Below are positions 1,398 to 29,552 of a stretch of DNA of 64,000 nucleotides, in pieces. The notes under the pieces were generated by a model that was not told the DNA's origin, searched no databases, and worked only from the letters and a program-made list of their open reading frames with translations. The translations under genes were made by a program, and so were the position numbers. The stretch covers positions 62,001 through 126,000 of the forward strand of contig CANCXX010000001.1 in the NCBI GenBank assembly GCA_947381965.1, read 5' to 3'. This DNA is from an uncultured bacterium. Its GTDB lineage: Bacteria; Bacillota; Clostridia; Lachnospirales; Lachnospiraceae. Each line of letters begins with the position of its first letter. Position 1 is the stretch's first letter.

Positions 1398-2786
1398 CTA
1401 AAATGTCATTTTATCAGCAAAATAAGCATCCAAATCTGCAATTGAAACCCGTTCCTGTTCCATGGAATCCCGGAATCTTACAGTCACGCACCCATCTGTT
1501 TCTGATTCAAAATCATAGGTAACACAAAACGGGGTTCCGATTTCATCCTGGCGACGGTACCTTTTTCCAATATTGCCTCTGTCGTCAAATTCACAGTTAT
1601 ACTTCTTTGACAGCTGTGTATAAATCTTTTCAGCGCCTTCATTCAACTTTTTGGATAAGGGCAGCACTCCGATTTTTACCGGTGCTAAAGCCGGGTGGAA
1701 ATGAAGCACTGTACGCACATCTCCCTCACCGATTTCTTCTTCATCATAGGCGCCGCACAATACAGCAAGGAACAGCCTCTCTACCCCCAGGGAAGGTTCA
1801 ATTACATAAGGAATATACTTTTCCCGTTTTTCGTCGTCAAAATAACTCATGTCCTGTCCGGACACATTCTGGTGCTGGGTCAGGTCATAGTTTGTCCGGT
1901 CTGCAATCCCCCAAAGCTCTCCCCAGCCGAAGGGGAACAGAAATTCAATATCTGTTGTTGCTTTTGAATAGAAAGAAAGCTCCTCAGGATCATGGTCCCT
2001 GACTCTCATTTCTTCTTCTTTCATTCCAAGGTTCTTTAAAAAATCTATACAATACTGTTTCCAGTATGCAAACCATTCAAGGTCTGTATCCGGCTCACAG
2101 AAAAACTCCATTTCCATCTGCTCAAATTCCCTGACCCGGAAAATAAAGTTTCCTGGCGTAATCTCATTTCGGAAAGACTTACCCACCTGACAAATGCCAA
2201 AGGGAATTTTTTTCCGTGAAGTCCTCTGCACATTTTTAAAGTTTACAAAAATTCCCTGTGCCGTTTCAGGCCGTAAATATACGGTGTTCTTGGCATCTTC
2301 CGTTACCCCCTGGAATGTTTTGAACATCAAATTAAACTGACGGATATCCGTAAAATTATGTTTGCCACAGGTAGGACAGGGAATTTGATGCTCATCAATA
2401 AAGCTCTTCATCTGTTCCTGGCTCCAGCCATCAACTGAAGAGGTCAGCTCTATTTTGTTTTCAGCAACATAGTCTTCTATTATTTTATCGGCACGGAACC
2501 GCTCATGACATTCCCGGCAATCCATCAAAGGGTCAGAAAAGCTTCCCAGGTGCCCGGAGGCCACCCATGTCTGGGGATTCATCAAAATGGCACAGTCAAC
2601 GCCTACGTTATAAGGACTTTCCATTACAAACTTTTGCCACCATGCCTTTTTGATATTATTTTTCAGCTCCACACCAAGGTTGCCGAAATCCCATGTATTT
2701 GCCAGTCCGCCATAGATTTCTGAACCGGGATATACAAAACCTCTTGATTTCGCAAGCGCAACAATTTTTTCCATCGTTTTTTCCAT
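1398..2786 (-). CDS. glyS: Glycyl-tRNA synthetase, single-chain dimeric type
   Basis: Charges tRNA-Gly with glycine. This is the homodimeric class II form of about 460 residues found in archaea, eukaryotes and many Clostridia, not the alpha2-beta2 form. Visible marks are the N-terminal [20 protein letters not shown], a zinc-like CREC and CPTCGKHNF pair (about residues 90-170), motif-2 region [15 protein letters not shown] and the C-terminal anticodon-binding domain beginning near [12 protein letters not shown]. The frame is open 7 codons further upstream, but the GAAAGG ribosome site lies inside that extension, so the second ATG (2784-2786) is the better start, giving 462 aa. It follows the lipoprotein gene by 32 bp and precedes alaS. 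Confidence 0.96.
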
Positions 2787-2818
2787 AGCACATGTACCTT
2801 TCGTCAAATGATTTATAA

Positions 2819-3436
2819 TTATTTAAAGAGAATATATATCATTCCGTCCTCCCCTTCGGTAAGCCGGACAACTTTTGAATTTTTTGAGACTGTTACGTGG
2901 TCACTGATATACAGGGCCTTTCCACCAAGCTGCACAGGTTCGTTGATATCGGTAATAAGAAGTTTCATGTCCTCCATTGCCAGTATATCCGCTTTCCCTA
3001 TCGTCTTTTGATCATCTCCCACTTCGCTAAGCACCACATTCAGGTTATATCCGGCTTCCTGGGCCTTGCCGGGCGTTCCTACAAAAAAGACTGCCTCATT
3101 AAAAGCCGCATAATCCGCTGCTTCTTTATAGGTCATCAGAACCATCGCCATATTGTTGTTTACTTCCACCTTTTCCACCGTTACATGATTTTCTCCGGCT
3201 GTTTTGTTATAGCTGGCAGCTTGGGAAAGAATTGACTGCTGGAGTTCATCTTTATCGTAATAACTTTGGGCAAACTCTTCCTCAATGTTGGATTTAACTG
3301 TTCCGTCACTTTCAAGAGAAATATAAGTTGCTCCAATTTCATCCCCCTGGCTGCCACAGGCACATAATCCTGACATTCCAGTTAAAATTAGTGACGCAAT
3401 TATCGCTTTGTATGAAATTTTTAAATTCGCTTTCAT
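2819..3436 (-). CDS. Small lipoprotein of unknown function
   Basis: 205 residues with a basic N-terminus, a hydrophobic segment and a lipobox-like LCAC at about residues 24-27, so it is probably exported and lipid-anchored on the outer face of the membrane. The mature part is acidic and soluble-looking, with no motif I recognise; a paired arrangement of beta-rich segments ([20 protein letters not shown], then a repeat-like region near [16 protein letters not shown]) is all that can be said. GGGG at suitable distance supports the ATG at 3436. It lies just upstream of glyS, and before the cassette insertion it would have been directly downstream of recO. Confidence 0.8.
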
Positions 3437-3498
3437 GGCAATCCCCTGTTTTCTTCAATTTACCAATACATTATATATGACTTACCCCTGTTTTTCAA

Positions 3499-3557
3499 CC
3501 TGGAATTTCATTTAAAATTTCCAGACTTTTCATTTTCCGGTCCATAAAACGTTTTCT
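3499..3557. repeat. 59-bp direct repeat, distal copy (cassette right boundary in transcription order)
   Basis: Perfect 59/59 match to 5036-5094. On the minus strand this copy forms the last ~16 codons and stop of the ATPase gene plus 9 bases beyond. If read in the recO frame it continues ...ILNEIPG and then TGA, a plausible original end of recO. Bases immediately outside the two copies differ on both sides, so the repeat length is exact. Confidence 0.95.
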
Positions 3558-4536
3558 CTTGGAACAGGGGCACTGTCAAATCTATGCCTTTCATGACAGC
3601 CAGAATCTTATCCGATATCTTCTCCTGCATATAAACCGAATTTAACTGCTTCTTGGAATACTTAAGATAACCGTCCTGTGTGCTCTTAATTACCTGTGCG
3701 GTAAAATACCGCTCCCAACTGAAAAAATCTTTACTTTCAATAAAATCCTCCGGATGCTTAAGCTTTTCATCCATTTCACTATCCGCTATCACCCCGGACT
3801 TTAAAATAATCCATTCAAAAGATTCCGGAAGATAAAGCGCAATGTCAGGATACCGCTTCATAAGCTGCACCATTTTCTCCATTTCAGAACCAAAGGCCGC
3901 CCCATCTGCAATTACCAGGATTCTCCTATCCAGGTGATTCACAATTTCTGCAAAAATATTAGATTTGCCCTGTGCGCTAATACATATTCGACCACTCTTT
4001 TCGCAAATATTGTGGAAAAATTGAAATCCTGAATTGGAATCCTCGGTGATTACATTTTCCGGCCTAACCGGATAATGAAAATCAGCCGTTTGATACAAAT
4101 GAAAAAACTCATTATAAGTCCGTTTCAGAGTTCCATACTTACCTGAATCACGAATTCCATAAACCTCATCCACGCTGTATGGCAGAGACGGAATCCCCTC
4201 TCTGGTTATTATCACATAATAGTTATCTGTTTTTTGAATAACCGCCGCAAAATCATCACTCATAACAAAGTCATTGCCTTCATCAATAAAAACAATGCAG
4301 TCCCTCATTATAGAAAGCTGCCCGGCCCATGTGCGGCCATTCAGAACCGTACACTCCTTATCACAATTAAGTTCCACCCCACTGGCAGAACCATTTTCAA
4401 AATGCTCACGTATCATATCTACCAGCGCCGTTTTCCCTGTTGCGCTGTCTCCACGGATAACCGTAATATTCCTTTTGATTTCAAAGTCATATCGAATACG
4501 CTTATTCTGTACAATAATTCTATGCCTCCCTTTCAT
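3508..4536 (-). CDS. P-loop ATPase of the DUF4869 cassette
   Basis: 342 residues. Walker A is GDSATGKT (residues 29-36) and a Walker B-like strand is IVFIDEGND (81-89), followed by a sensor-like VIITRE (108-113). The second half has an acidic strand end VITEDSNSGFQFF (about 162-174) and RRILVIADGAAFG (204-216), a spacing that recalls TOPRIM domains of OLD-type proteins; this is a weak resemblance only. The track-longest frame starts at a GTG, but AAGAGGTG six bases before ATG 4534-4536 decides the start. It follows the DUF4869 gene by 12 bp. The last ~16 residues (from KTFYGPEN) are encoded by the recO-derived 59-bp repeat in another frame. Function not established. Confidence 0.85.
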   Translation of the reverse strand: MKGRHRIIVQNKRIRYDFEIKRNITVIRGDSATGKTALVDMIREHFENGSASGVELNCDKECTVLNGRTWAGQLSIMRDCIVFIDEGNDFVMSDDFAAVIQKTDNYYVIITREGIPSLPYSVDEVYGIRDSGKYGTLKRTYNEFFHLYQTADFHYPVRPENVITEDSNSGFQFFHNICEKSGRICISAQGKSNIFAEIVNHLDRRILVIADGAAFGSEMEKMVQLMKRYPDIALYLPESFEWIILKSGVIADSEMDEKLKHPEDFIESKDFFSWERYFTAQVIKSTQDGYLKYSKKQLNSVYMQEKISDKILAVMKGIDLTVPLFQEKTFYGPENEKSGNFK

Positions 4537-4548
4537 ATGCGGCACCTC

Positions 4549-4986
4549 TTATACATACATTCCGGCAATCGGAACAAGCTCTTTCATACTATGGACAAGC
4601 TGATCCGTATTCAGAATACGAATGTCGAATGCTCTGTCTCCAAAATCCATTAGATGACGCAGGTTGATGGTTACGTCATCCGTCTCGGCCAGCTTCAGAA
4701 TCCATTTTGCACAGTTATCCCCACAAGTGGAAGCATTGAACACTCTGGAACGATCATTCTTTATAAGAATCAGCGTTTTGACACCACCTGAAAGAGCCGT
4801 AGGCGCAATCTTTCCCATGACAGGGCTGTCAATTACCGCACTGTCCAGAACAATGGACTTATCCACATCAAGAATCATTTGTCTTGCAAACGGATCAGTA
4901 ATCCATATGTCTTCATATGTATTTTTGAAATATACTGCCGTATTAAAAATGGCCTCCGGCATATTGCCGTAATAAATGTTGAGCAT
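4549..4986 (-). CDS. DUF4869-like protein of the two-gene cassette
   Basis: 145 residues, soluble, no signal peptide or membrane segment. The beginning MLNIYYGNMPEAIFNTAVYF, the central SGGVKTLILI, the cysteine motif STCGDNCAKWILKL (about residues 86-99) and NLRHLMDFGDRAFDIRILNT match my recollection of DUF4869, a family seen in gut Clostridia usually beside a P-loop ATPase. GGGAGG precedes the ATG at good spacing. Translation is likely coupled with the ATPase gene downstream. It starts only 39 bp past the recO stop, inside the segment bounded by the 59-bp repeats. No function is known to me; partner of the ATPase is the natural inference. Confidence 0.82.
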   Translation of the reverse strand: MLNIYYGNMPEAIFNTAVYFKNTYEDIWITDPFARQMILDVDKSIVLDSAVIDSPVMGKIAPTALSGGVKTLILIKNDRSRVFNASTCGDNCAKWILKLAETDDVTINLRHLMDFGDRAFDIRILNTDQLVHSMKELVPIAGMYV

Positions 4987-4999
4987 TTTCAGGCACCTC

Positions 5000-5009
5000 C
5001 CTGGAATTT
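5000..5009. repeat. Short third copy of the repeat core
   Basis: The ten bases CCTGGAATTT that open the 59-bp repeats occur again here, 36 bp from the recO-side copy, in the leader of the DUF4869 gene and touching its ribosome binding site. It may be a recombinase arm-type site, a decayed copy, or chance. Confidence 0.3.
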
Positions 5010-5025
5010 ACAGTTTTCAAAGTAT

Positions 5026-5706
5026 TCAAACACCGCCTGGAATTTCATTTAAAATTTCCAGACTTTTCATTTTCCGGTCCATAAAACGTTTTCTGTAAAT
5101 GTCGGCTATCTCCGAAAGTTCCTGCAATACCTGATCCGTCACTGTAAAAGTATACAGCTTTTCAATGGTGGAGGCTGCAATATAATTAACCGCGTAGACA
5201 GTAGATCCCTGATAGGGCGGCTCTCCTGATGGAACCCCCGGAAATTCACCGTTTATCACCAGCGCTTTTATTTCAAATATGTAACGCACCAGTTTGTTTG
5301 ACAATCCCTTATGCAAAAGTGCTTTCAACGACTGGTACAGCAGCTTTAGCATTTCTTTTTCGTCGTTATTTTCTCTTGTATAATAATCCATAACCTCCAG
5401 AAAGTACATACCATAGCATGCAGCGTCAAAGTCTTCCCGCATTTCTTCAAAATAATTACTGACAGATGCTTCTAAAACACTGTATGCGCTCCTTCCCTCG
5501 TACATGGCAAATATTCCAAAGCAAAAGGGATTGGTAGAAGCTAACAGCCTGCTGCTTTGCCTTCTTGCGCCCTTCGCAAATGCTGTTATCTTACCCCTCT
5601 CCCTTGTTAATATCACTACCCGTCTGTCATACTCTCCGATGGGCTCTGTTTTTAATATCATCCCTGTAACACTGACCTGTTCCCGCACCTTTACCGGCTC
5701 CCTCAT
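5026..5706 (-). CDS. recO: DNA repair and recombination mediator RecO
   Basis: 226 residues; loads RecA on SSB-coated DNA with RecR in gap repair. The N-terminal OB fold shows VTGMILKTEPIGEYDRRVV and LTRERGKITAFAKGARR, followed by the helical region. The cysteine pairs of a zinc finger found in many RecO proteins are absent: the corresponding part reads VINGEFPGVPSGEPPYQG. The last 19 codons lie in the 59-bp direct repeat, and the final GGV and stop come from the inserted cassette. The ATG at 5704-5706 overlaps the YqzL-like gene. Era lies just upstream, the usual neighbour. Confidence 0.95.
   Translation of the reverse strand: MREPVKVREQVSVTGMILKTEPIGEYDRRVVILTRERGKITAFAKGARRQSSRLLASTNPFCFGIFAMYEGRSAYSVLEASVSNYFEEMREDFDAACYGMYFLEVMDYYTRENNDEKEMLKLLYQSLKALLHKGLSNKLVRYIFEIKALVINGEFPGVPSGEPPYQGSTVYAVNYIAASTIEKLYTFTVTDQVLQELSEIADIYRKRFMDRKMKSLEILNEIPGGV
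5036..5094. repeat. 59-bp direct repeat, recO copy
   Basis: Perfect copy of 3499-3557, here in frame as codons for residues from RKRFMDRKMK to NEIPG at the RecO C-terminus. The distance between copies is 1537 bp and exactly one DUF4869-ATPase cassette lies in that unit, as expected for integration at the recO 3' end that restores the target reading frame. Confidence 0.95.
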
Positions 5707-5857: not shown

Positions 5858-6760
5858 CTATTCGCTCTCCTTTGGATTATACCCAAAATTTTTAAGAAGA
5901 AAGTCACTGTCCCGCCAGTCTTTTTTCACCTTCACCCATAGCTGCAGATTTACCCTGCTTTCCAGCATTTCCTCAATATCCGTCCGGGCGCTGGAACCTA
6001 TTTTTTTCAGCATGGCCCCCTGTTTGCCAATAATTATTCCTTTATGGGACTCTTTCTCACAGATAATGGTGGCATCAATATCTGTAATCTTTCCCCTGCG
6101 TTTCATCCTCTCTATTGTAACCGCAATTCCATGGGGAACCTCTTCTTCCAGACAGCGCAGCGCTTTTTCCCGTATCATTTCCGCCACCAGCGCTCTCTCT
6201 GGCTGATCTGTCACCGTATCCTCGTCATAAAAAGCCGGTCCATAGGGAAGGTACTGCATAATGCATCTAATCAGTTCCTGTGTATTATCCGCTTTTAATG
6301 CCGAAACCGGAACAATTTCCGCAAAATCCATTTCCTTTCTGTAGATATCAATAAATCCCAGAAGTTCCTCTCTCTTCACAGTATCAATCTTATTGATGAC
6401 CAGTATCACCGGTGTATTTACCTTCTGGAGCTGAGCCATAATATGCCGTTCTCCGGCTCCGATAAAGCTGGAAGGCTCTACCAGATACAGAATAACATCC
6501 ACTTCCTTAAGACTTTTATTGGCCACATTTACCATATAATCTCCCAGCCGGTTCTTTGCTTTGTGTATTCCGGGAGTATCAACAAACACAATCTGCCCCT
6601 CTGTGGAAGTATATACCGTCTGGATACGGTTTCTTGTGGTTTGGGGTTTATTGGAGGTAATGGCAATTTTCTGTCCAATCAGACAATTCATCAATGTAGA
6701 CTTTCCTACATTTGGTCTTCCAATAAGCGCCGCAAAACCGGATTTATACTGGTCATTCAT
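5858..6760 (-). CDS. era: GTPase Era
   Basis: 300 residues, the usual length. Era binds GTP and the 3' end of 16S rRNA to assist 30S subunit maturation. G1 is GRPNVGKST (about 14-22), G3 is VDTPGIH, G4 is VINKIDT, and the C-terminal KH domain carries IICEKESHKGIIIGKQGAML. GAGGG precedes the ATG at 6760. It heads the era-yqzL-recO group; the DUF4349 lipoprotein gene lies 19 bp upstream in the same direction. Confidence 0.98.
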   Translation of the reverse strand: MNDQYKSGFAALIGRPNVGKSTLMNCLIGQKIAITSNKPQTTRNRIQTVYTSTEGQIVFVDTPGIHKAKNRLGDYMVNVANKSLKEVDVILYLVEPSSFIGAGERHIMAQLQKVNTPVILVINKIDTVKREELLGFIDIYRKEMDFAEIVPVSALKADNTQELIRCIMQYLPYGPAFYDEDTVTDQPERALVAEMIREKALRCLEEEVPHGIAVTIERMKRRGKITDIDATIICEKESHKGIIIGKQGAMLKKIGSSARTDIEEMLESRVNLQLWVKVKKDWRDSDFLLKNFGYNPKESE

Positions 6761-12454: not shown

Positions 12455-13324
12455 CTACTTTCCCTTTACATGGGTATGGGTGAAAATATGATCCTGGCAG
12501 TATTCATAATTTCCTTCACACTTAGAGCAAAACCGAAATTCAAGTTCCGGGTTTGTTTCCTCTGTTCTTCCGCAGATAGCACATTTATGTCTTGTGGACT
12601 TTGTCGTCTTTTTTACTTCCCGGCGAAATTCATACTGACGCTTTGCCTGTCTTGGAGTCATATGGACTTTTCCCCTGCCAGTGATAAAAAAGATAATAAA
12701 ATTCATAAGGGAAGCGCCAATTACAAACTTAACCGCAACAGAGCCTGTTACAAACTGATAGGCAAGCAGCGCTCCATAAATAATAGCAAGTACCTTAATT
12801 TTTACAGGTATAAAGAAAAACAGCAACAGCTGCATGTTGGGGTAGGTGGACGCAAATGCCAGGTAAATGGACATGTTCACATAATAGGTGCTGAACATGG
12901 CTGCAGGCGAAAACATTCCCATATAAGCTCCCCACATGGCAAGCCCCTCTTCTTTATATAAAATCACCGAGTAACCAAACAGGAGAAAGGCTCCCAATAT
13001 GGTAAACAGCATTCCAGAAAATATATATACATTATATCGATAAGTCCCCCAAGTTCTCTCTAATGTGGTTCCCAACGAATAATAAAAATACAACATCAAA
13101 AGAGTAAAAAAATCAAAACTGGAAGGCGGGATAATGAGCCATGTAAACAGCCTCCATACCTGACCATGAAAAATAATCTCATAAGGGTTCAGATAAAGAA
13201 AGGGAAGCAAATTGGGATACATCCACTGGAATAAATACCCAAACGCATAACATATAATTAGCACCATTGATAAATTCTTTATCGCATATTTTCCAAATTT
13301 TTTTTCAAATTTGCCCGCCCTCAT
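12455..13324 (-). CDS. Rhomboid-like membrane protein without catalytic serine, with C-terminal zinc ribbon
   Basis: 289 residues from ATG 13324 (GGAGG eight bases before); an upstream extension of 37 codons has no ribosome site and covers the promoter. About six membrane helices follow a short basic N-terminus. GQVWRLFTWLIIPP matches the WR loop of rhomboids, but the expected GxSG serine is replaced in AMWGAYMGMFSPA, so protease activity is unlikely. The cytoplasmic tail after residue ~240 has CAICGR, FCSKCEGNYEYC and DH, a likely zinc-binding ribbon. It is the first gene of a three-gene operon with the sigma-like protein. Confidence 0.82.
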   Translation of the reverse strand: MRAGKFEKKFGKYAIKNLSMVLIICYAFGYLFQWMYPNLLPFLYLNPYEIIFHGQVWRLFTWLIIPPSSFDFFTLLMLYFYYSLGTTLERTWGTYRYNVYIFSGMLFTILGAFLLFGYSVILYKEEGLAMWGAYMGMFSPAAMFSTYYVNMSIYLAFASTYPNMQLLLFFFIPVKIKVLAIIYGALLAYQFVTGSVAVKFVIGASLMNFIIFFITGRGKVHMTPRQAKRQYEFRREVKKTTKSTRHKCAICGRTEETNPELEFRFCSKCEGNYEYCQDHIFTHTHVKGK

Positions 13325-29335: not shown

Positions 29336-29340
29336 TTTTT

Positions 29341-29380
29341 ATACCCCCGCATACCGTAAGCTGCGCTTGCGGTACTGCAT
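29341..29380 (-). repeat. Palindromic repeat with built-in ribosome site, dxr-proximal copy
   Basis: About 40 bp with hairpin arms TACCGTAAGC (29352-29361) and GCTTGCGGTA (29365-29374), ending on the minus strand in GCGGGGGTAT, which supplies the dxr ribosome binding site. Related copies lie at 29414-29453, 53891-53930 and perhaps 39022-39057. Confidence 0.7.
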
Positions 29381-29413
29381 CCATAAACAGTTTGGAAGTT
29401 TACCTCCAAACTT

Positions 29414-29453
29414 ATACCCCCACATACCGCGAGCTGTGTTTGCGGTACTGCAT
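29414..29453 (-). repeat. Palindromic repeat, second copy upstream of dxr
   Basis: Imperfect direct repeat of 29341-29380 (ATACCCCC, then CATACCG, then GCGGTACTGCAT shared). Hairpin pairing is weaker, with two mismatches. A short inverted repeat TTTGGA/TCCAAA lies between the two copies. Confidence 0.65.
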
Positions 29454-29552
29454 CATTCACATTACTTACTAATATTAAAGACCGTCTGTTTTTATTCCCG
29501 CAAGCAATGAGTCAAGCGGACGCAAAGCATCCATCTGACGAATGCCGCGAGG

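Follow-up and report, generated by a model that had tools for sequence, protein, structure and literature searches.

How did a pair of genes come to stand at the 3' end of recO, between two identical copies of that gene's own end, and does it owe this position to a dedicated integration enzyme or to chance DNA repair? In the window (the whole 64-kb stretch of DNA that was analysed), the genes on the minus strand follow each other in the order era, recO, DUF4869, ATPase, lipoprotein-like gene, glyS, and direct repeats of the target gene's end are present at both boundaries of the insert (Table 1). Of the two answers, chance repair appears somewhat more likely.

The repeat and the genes between its copies

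The repeat search in the 64-kb window showed a perfect direct repeat of exactly 59 bp with a spacing of 1,537 bp, in agreement with the identity and the period reported in an earlier, sequence-only reading of this DNA. When the whole genome was searched with a 27-base part of the repeat, allowing up to three mismatches, these two places were the only ones found. One other direct repeat of at least 22 bp within 12 kb (seed 14) was detected in the window, a near-tandem pair at 29339-29454 formed by a 43-bp sequence with a repeat spacing of 73 bp and an identity of 88%. The earlier assignment of coding also holds: the proximal copy is read within recO, and the distal one, out of that frame, encodes the C-terminal tail of the ATPase. 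Read in the recO frame, the distal copy gives ...NEIPG and then TGA, as had been stated; recO with the insert ends NEIPGGV-stop, and the joined flanks, corresponding to an empty site, would give NEIPG-stop. Neither a recombinase nor a transposase is encoded among the insert's ORFs, the former absence having been noted already in the sequence-only reading.

Table 1. Features of the recO region (positions in the window)
Feature	Position	Strand	Remark
glyS	1398-2807	-	Named from sequence; after the lipoprotein-like gene
Lipoprotein-like protein	2819..3436	-	Not matched in Pfam, name given by eye; neighbour on the right
Promoter-like TTGAAA-17-TATAAT	3470..3498	-	Candidate, by eye; before the lipoprotein gene, just beyond the distal copy
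Distal copy of the 59-bp repeat	3499..3557	-	Original recO end; TGA next in the recO frame
P-loop ATPase, 345 aa	3508..4545	-	Conserved in the family to ~residue 323, then locus-specific
Inserted segment, 1,478 bp, two genes	3558..5035	-	Missing at the recO-lipoprotein junction in 28/29 fetched congeners
DUF4869 protein, 145 aa	4549..4986	-	Pfam PF16163, E 3e-63
recO, target gene	5026..5706	-	Ends NEIPGGV-stop
Proximal copy of the 59-bp repeat	5036..5094	-	recO codons for ...RKRFMDRKMKSLEILNEIPG
era	5858-6760	-	Upstream of recO

It had also been supposed that the end of the ATPase gene mimics its target. The alignment of 31 ATPases (the window's and 30 others) speaks against it, as conservation stops at about residue 323, before the repeat, and beyond this point the tails vary in length and sequence. 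The tail of the window ATPase, TVPLFQEKTFYGPENEKSGNFK, is mostly duplicated recO DNA in another frame, and the last ~17 residues are the product of read-through into the duplicate, an accidental tail. In PADLOC (PADLOC-DB 2.0.0), the ATPase gives weak matches to the N-termini of LmuB, GajA, and PtuA, the ATPase partners of defence systems, and the LmuB model PDLC03859 matches the P-loop region weakly in 30 of the 31 members (best E 1.7e-07). However, the best PADLOC match of the window ATPase spans residues 9-78 only, searches of Pfam and PDB gave no substantial relative for the C-terminal half, and a full-length match to a described defence component was not found in PADLOC-DB 2.0.0. The DUF4869 protein, which matches PF16163 with 211.8 bits, above the curated cut-off of 28.9, gave no hit in PADLOC with E allowed up to 1, and the full-text literature search returned no paper naming it. 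The gene pair is ordinary in kind and undescribed in the literature searched; based on the ATPase type and the patchy occurrence, one might guess at an accessory role, e.g., in phage defence.

The recO site in related genomes

Searched for in 37 genomes of the genus (this one included), recO was found in 35; 30 recO loci, with the window among them, were fetched, and five more matches were left unread. In 28 of the 29 fetched congeners a homologue of the lipoprotein gene stands directly after recO, starting 47-145 nt past its stop, with no gene pair between; in the remaining one, L040, the contig ends too soon after recO. Comparison with relatives, proposed in the sequence-only reading, has thereby yielded the empty site. 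The string after the distal copy is the one that follows the single recO end of congeners, and a similar promoter-like string lies 3' of recO in many of them. This string and the recO-lipoprotein adjacency point to an ancestral recO site that lacked the gene pair and, as far as it was read, held one copy of the segment.

The source of the second copy can be approached by comparing the 59-mer with the recO ends in the congeners. Between 34 and 55 of its 59 positions are matched in these 29 genomes (median 73%), whereas the two copies in the window match at 59 of 59. Within the congener loci a single place reaches at least 32 of 59 in 27 of 29, and in the other two a second place stands at 33 and 32 of 59. 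Given this difference, the second copy looks locally made; had an island imported its att copy from a different species, the copies would be expected to differ. Earlier it had been proposed that the unit arrived with a target end of its own, a view that, at this site, does not agree with a copy matching the host's own recO perfectly. The broader proposal of an island-type insertion is retained in part: there is an insert between copies of the recO 3' end and the recO frame is open, but the unit's own target end falls away. Gene conversion could alternatively have made the copies identical, and an identical copy may also have come with an island of the same species.

Whether such repeats are common in this genome was judged from 864 kb (the window and 40 stretches of 20 kb), scanned at a spacing of 0.5-6 kb and a score of at least 24. 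The scan gave eight rows: the window's own, C1 (two rows, one pair), C3, C4, C8, C11, and C23. The C23 pair is a dispersed repeat by search; read by eye, the C3 and C4 pairs appear dispersed or MITE-like and the C8 and C1 pairs appear to be gene paralogues, with C3 and C1 judged from the repeat letters only. C11 aside, no general habit of such insertions was seen over the 864 kb. In C11 of this genome (G000), a repeat of 63 bp that contains a terminator-like hairpin, at 13007 and 18225, brackets genes for an ArsP-like permease, a DUF362 protein, a flavodoxin, and an Fe-alcohol dehydrogenase; this block could be another insertion. A dispersed repeat of ~72 bp occurs many times in this genome (L244:14432-14503 and other G000 places), and one pair of its copies brackets thrS-like and GNAT genes.

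The module in other genomes

The Pfam model detected DUF4869 in 9 genomes out of 60, its own included, with 8 over the cut-off. With the window protein as query (E up to 1e-20) it was found in 55 of 397 genomes of the family and 51 of 334 genera, and the ATPase (E up to 1e-15) in 49 of the 397, 46 of them among DUF4869's 55. The module also occurs in 3 of 72,556 plasmid records, in 5 of 50,697 phage records, and at two viral-contig loci; a scan of species genomes yielded 451 relatives, and the 79 best loci among them were retained. This distribution among gut bacteria is patchy, and it suggests a two-gene module that is gained and lost across the family. In the selection test, for which the first 14 loci were taken from each set, dN was 0.07-0.11 and dS 0.74-2.66 for DUF4869 (dS computable in 10/14), and dN was 0.10-0.27 and dS 1.1-2.5 for the ATPase (11/14), values that indicate purifying selection on both genes. 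In four congener pairs the dS of DUF4869 was each time lower than that of recO (0.74/1.63, 0.96/1.40, 1.15/1.27, and 1.05/3.81), a modest hint that the module may spread horizontally within the genus. The genes are full length at 50 of 78 loci for the ATPase and 75 of 78 for DUF4869 (L087, a duplicate, left out), and 26 of the 28 loci with a short ATPase have room on the contig. A greater decay of the ATPase was considered and dropped, since the loci had been found via DUF4869 and the comparison is biased. At L060 and L061 the ATPase match stops after ~21-27 codons and DUF4869 is full length; L085 and L086 carry tandem DUF4869 paralogues, with a partial ATPase between them in L085.

From 146 module hits, 133 remained after duplicate removal and 128 had enough flank. 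A flanking direct repeat with a score of at least 25 was present at 10 of the 128 loci, or at 8 when L085 and L086_1 are set aside as tails of DUF4869 paralogues. The eight (the window, L059, L060, L101, L119, L121, L150, and L166) have repeats of 34-68 bp ungapped. This excess was judged against a within-locus control of pseudo-cassettes, placed elsewhere in the same loci: a single one of 585, lying at a tRNA cluster, had a score of at least 25, and none of 108 within the window did. In a cross-locus control, 1.4% of 1000 mismatched pairs reached at least 16, with values up to 169 because the pairs included related loci; for 70 loci, an earlier control gave a maximum of 14 in 400. Searches found just two copies of the repeats of the window, L150, and L166, and a third partial copy for L060; for L059, L101, L119, and L121, compared with the collected module loci only, there was no full further copy. 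The repeat of L150 comprises 46 nt of a tmRNA 3' end, with 3 differences, and ends one base before the annotated end. In L166 a terminator-like hairpin is repeated after a gene pair that we take, from its sequence, to be atpD-atpC.

In G004, the other insertion that can be read exactly, the gene pair stands between a trpB-like gene and what is presumably secA, both names being given from sequence. G009 is 96-99% identical to G004 there and empty at the site, and comparison of the G004 join with this empty site leaves a duplication of at most 6 bp. No usable empty site was found for L060, L150, L166, or L055.

The second issue is whether the unit has ends of its own. The inserts of the window and G004 measure 1,478 and 1,517 bp. 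No terminal inverted repeats were found in either: the best score was 5, which 334 (window) and 352 (G004) of 500 shuffled sequences also attained. A common end between the two inserts was not found. No 14-mer is shared by the flanks of more than 3 of the pooled loci; those in 3 loci belong to close relatives or to the T-arm of a tRNA/tmRNA upstream of the module in L103, L150, and L165. Codon conservation does not rise at either end. Conserved element ends were rejected, there being no common end, no widespread 14-mer, and no such rise. The same att site was not found in related elements either, with at most 6 bp duplicated in G004 and no widespread flank motif. For a preference for co-directional gene ends there was no real excess, with 90 of 118 upstream genes vs a background of 424 of 590. 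Homology loss at the gene ends, considered as a boundary for pairs 76-89% alike, was dropped as uninformative because synonymous sites are near saturation; neutral flanks would not be alignable anyway. L107 and L142, a 98% pair, were discarded as two separate insertions, their left site being apparently common, at a dispersed repeat, and the difference lying only on the right. The flank of L142 (G162, G453) contains a ~140-bp repeat that is present dozens of times in two genomes of a single genus, and one copy stands upstream of the gene pair.

Near some copies of the module there are signs of recombinases. L103 encodes a tyrosine integrase of 462 aa (4175-5560; PF00589, E 5.4e-17), which stops 438 nt short of DUF4869; between the two, at -143 to -90 from DUF4869, lies a tRNA-like 3' fragment. 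A similar fragment is found in L165 at -220 to -167. ARAGORN called no complete tRNA at either fragment, and neither locus holds a second copy of it. In L058 (G001) the stretch from -2851 to -1292 relative to DUF4869 encodes a serine recombinase of the large type (PF07508, E 4.3e-26). For the copies at L103, L150, L165, and L058 these signs favour movement by a recombinase.

How the unit may have landed

We tentatively propose, giving it a little short of an even chance, that the insertion in recO is the result of recent non-homologous repair of a staggered break. It is assumed that two nicks ~59 bp apart in the recO 3' end would leave long overhangs, and that their fill-in and the joining of a foreign fragment would duplicate the 59 bp. 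Owing to the duplication, recO would keep its end and the lipoprotein gene its promoter-like sequence, while the ATPase, with its native stop lost or overrun, would end by read-through into the duplicate. Observation supplies the insertion, the empty site, the identity of the duplicate with the host recO, the patchiness, and the purifying selection; that a break was repaired and that the joining was non-specific is what we infer. As there are no fixed ends, no own recombinase, and duplications ranging from ~0 to 59 bp, opportunistic joining seems the best reading at recO. However, a stagger of 59 nt is long for simple break repair, the 46-nt tmRNA repeat of L150 is an integrase-like signature, and a purely random process would not have to produce an excess of repeats around one module (10/128, or 8/128, vs 1/585). 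The tmRNA case, the integrase cases, and the repeat excess are left unexplained by break repair, and one literature search, on illegitimate recombination together with target duplication, returned no matching paper.

Part of this could be accommodated by site-specific integration, in which the unit would be a cis-mobilizable or decayed island with the 59-bp copies as attL and attR and an integrase acting in trans. We consider it unlikely at recO, though a serious contender. Recombinase islands at gene 3' ends and cis-mobilizable elements (CIMEs; PMC3146451) resemble the unit in the direct repeats of a gene end around it, in the gene left open, and, for CIMEs, in the lack of an own recombinase. 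The position of the repeat in a gene 3' end fits such a route, as do the 46 nt of tmRNA 3' end on both sides of the module in L150, the tyrosine integrase with its tRNA-like fragment in L103, the similar fragment in L165, and the large serine recombinase 1.3-2.9 kb away in L058. Taken over all copies of the module, the recombinase route of the sequence-only reading therefore keeps some ground, owing to L150 and L103. What weighs against it is that the repeat in the window matches the host's own recO where congeners differ, that 28 of the 29 fetched congeners have no island at recO, that G004 has no att-size repeat, that the tRNA-like fragments are single in the L103 and L165 loci, and that the unit measures only 1.5 kb.

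The remaining explanations are all improbable. An assembler may have placed the pair between copies of a k-mer-long string, as 59 is a default k-mer size of a common metagenome assembler and the genome lies in 92 contigs with a contamination of 7.31%; but both junctions of foreign DNA with recO would need reads across them, and repeats surround the pair in other assemblies too. Still less probable is transposition in trans with a long, variable target duplication. IS1549 and IS1634 have long variable direct repeats of 8-514 bp (PMC2266710), and the range of the eight loci here lies within it; however, the insert has no transposase among its ORFs, no terminal inverted repeats beyond the shuffled level, and no end in common with that of G004. 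Least probable of all is a new type of minimal, self-moving element, whose ATPase and DUF4869 protein would themselves make widely spaced nicks and insert the unit without fixed ends, leaving duplications of very variable length.

The module is found in many genera of the family and is under purifying selection, yet DUF4869 goes unnamed in the full-text search. The duplication spares recO here, and such a duplication may be mistaken for an att site, or an att site for it. The two empty sites, at recO and in G009 as compared with G004, document how a small, undescribed gene pair that encodes no recombinase enters the surroundings of core genes.
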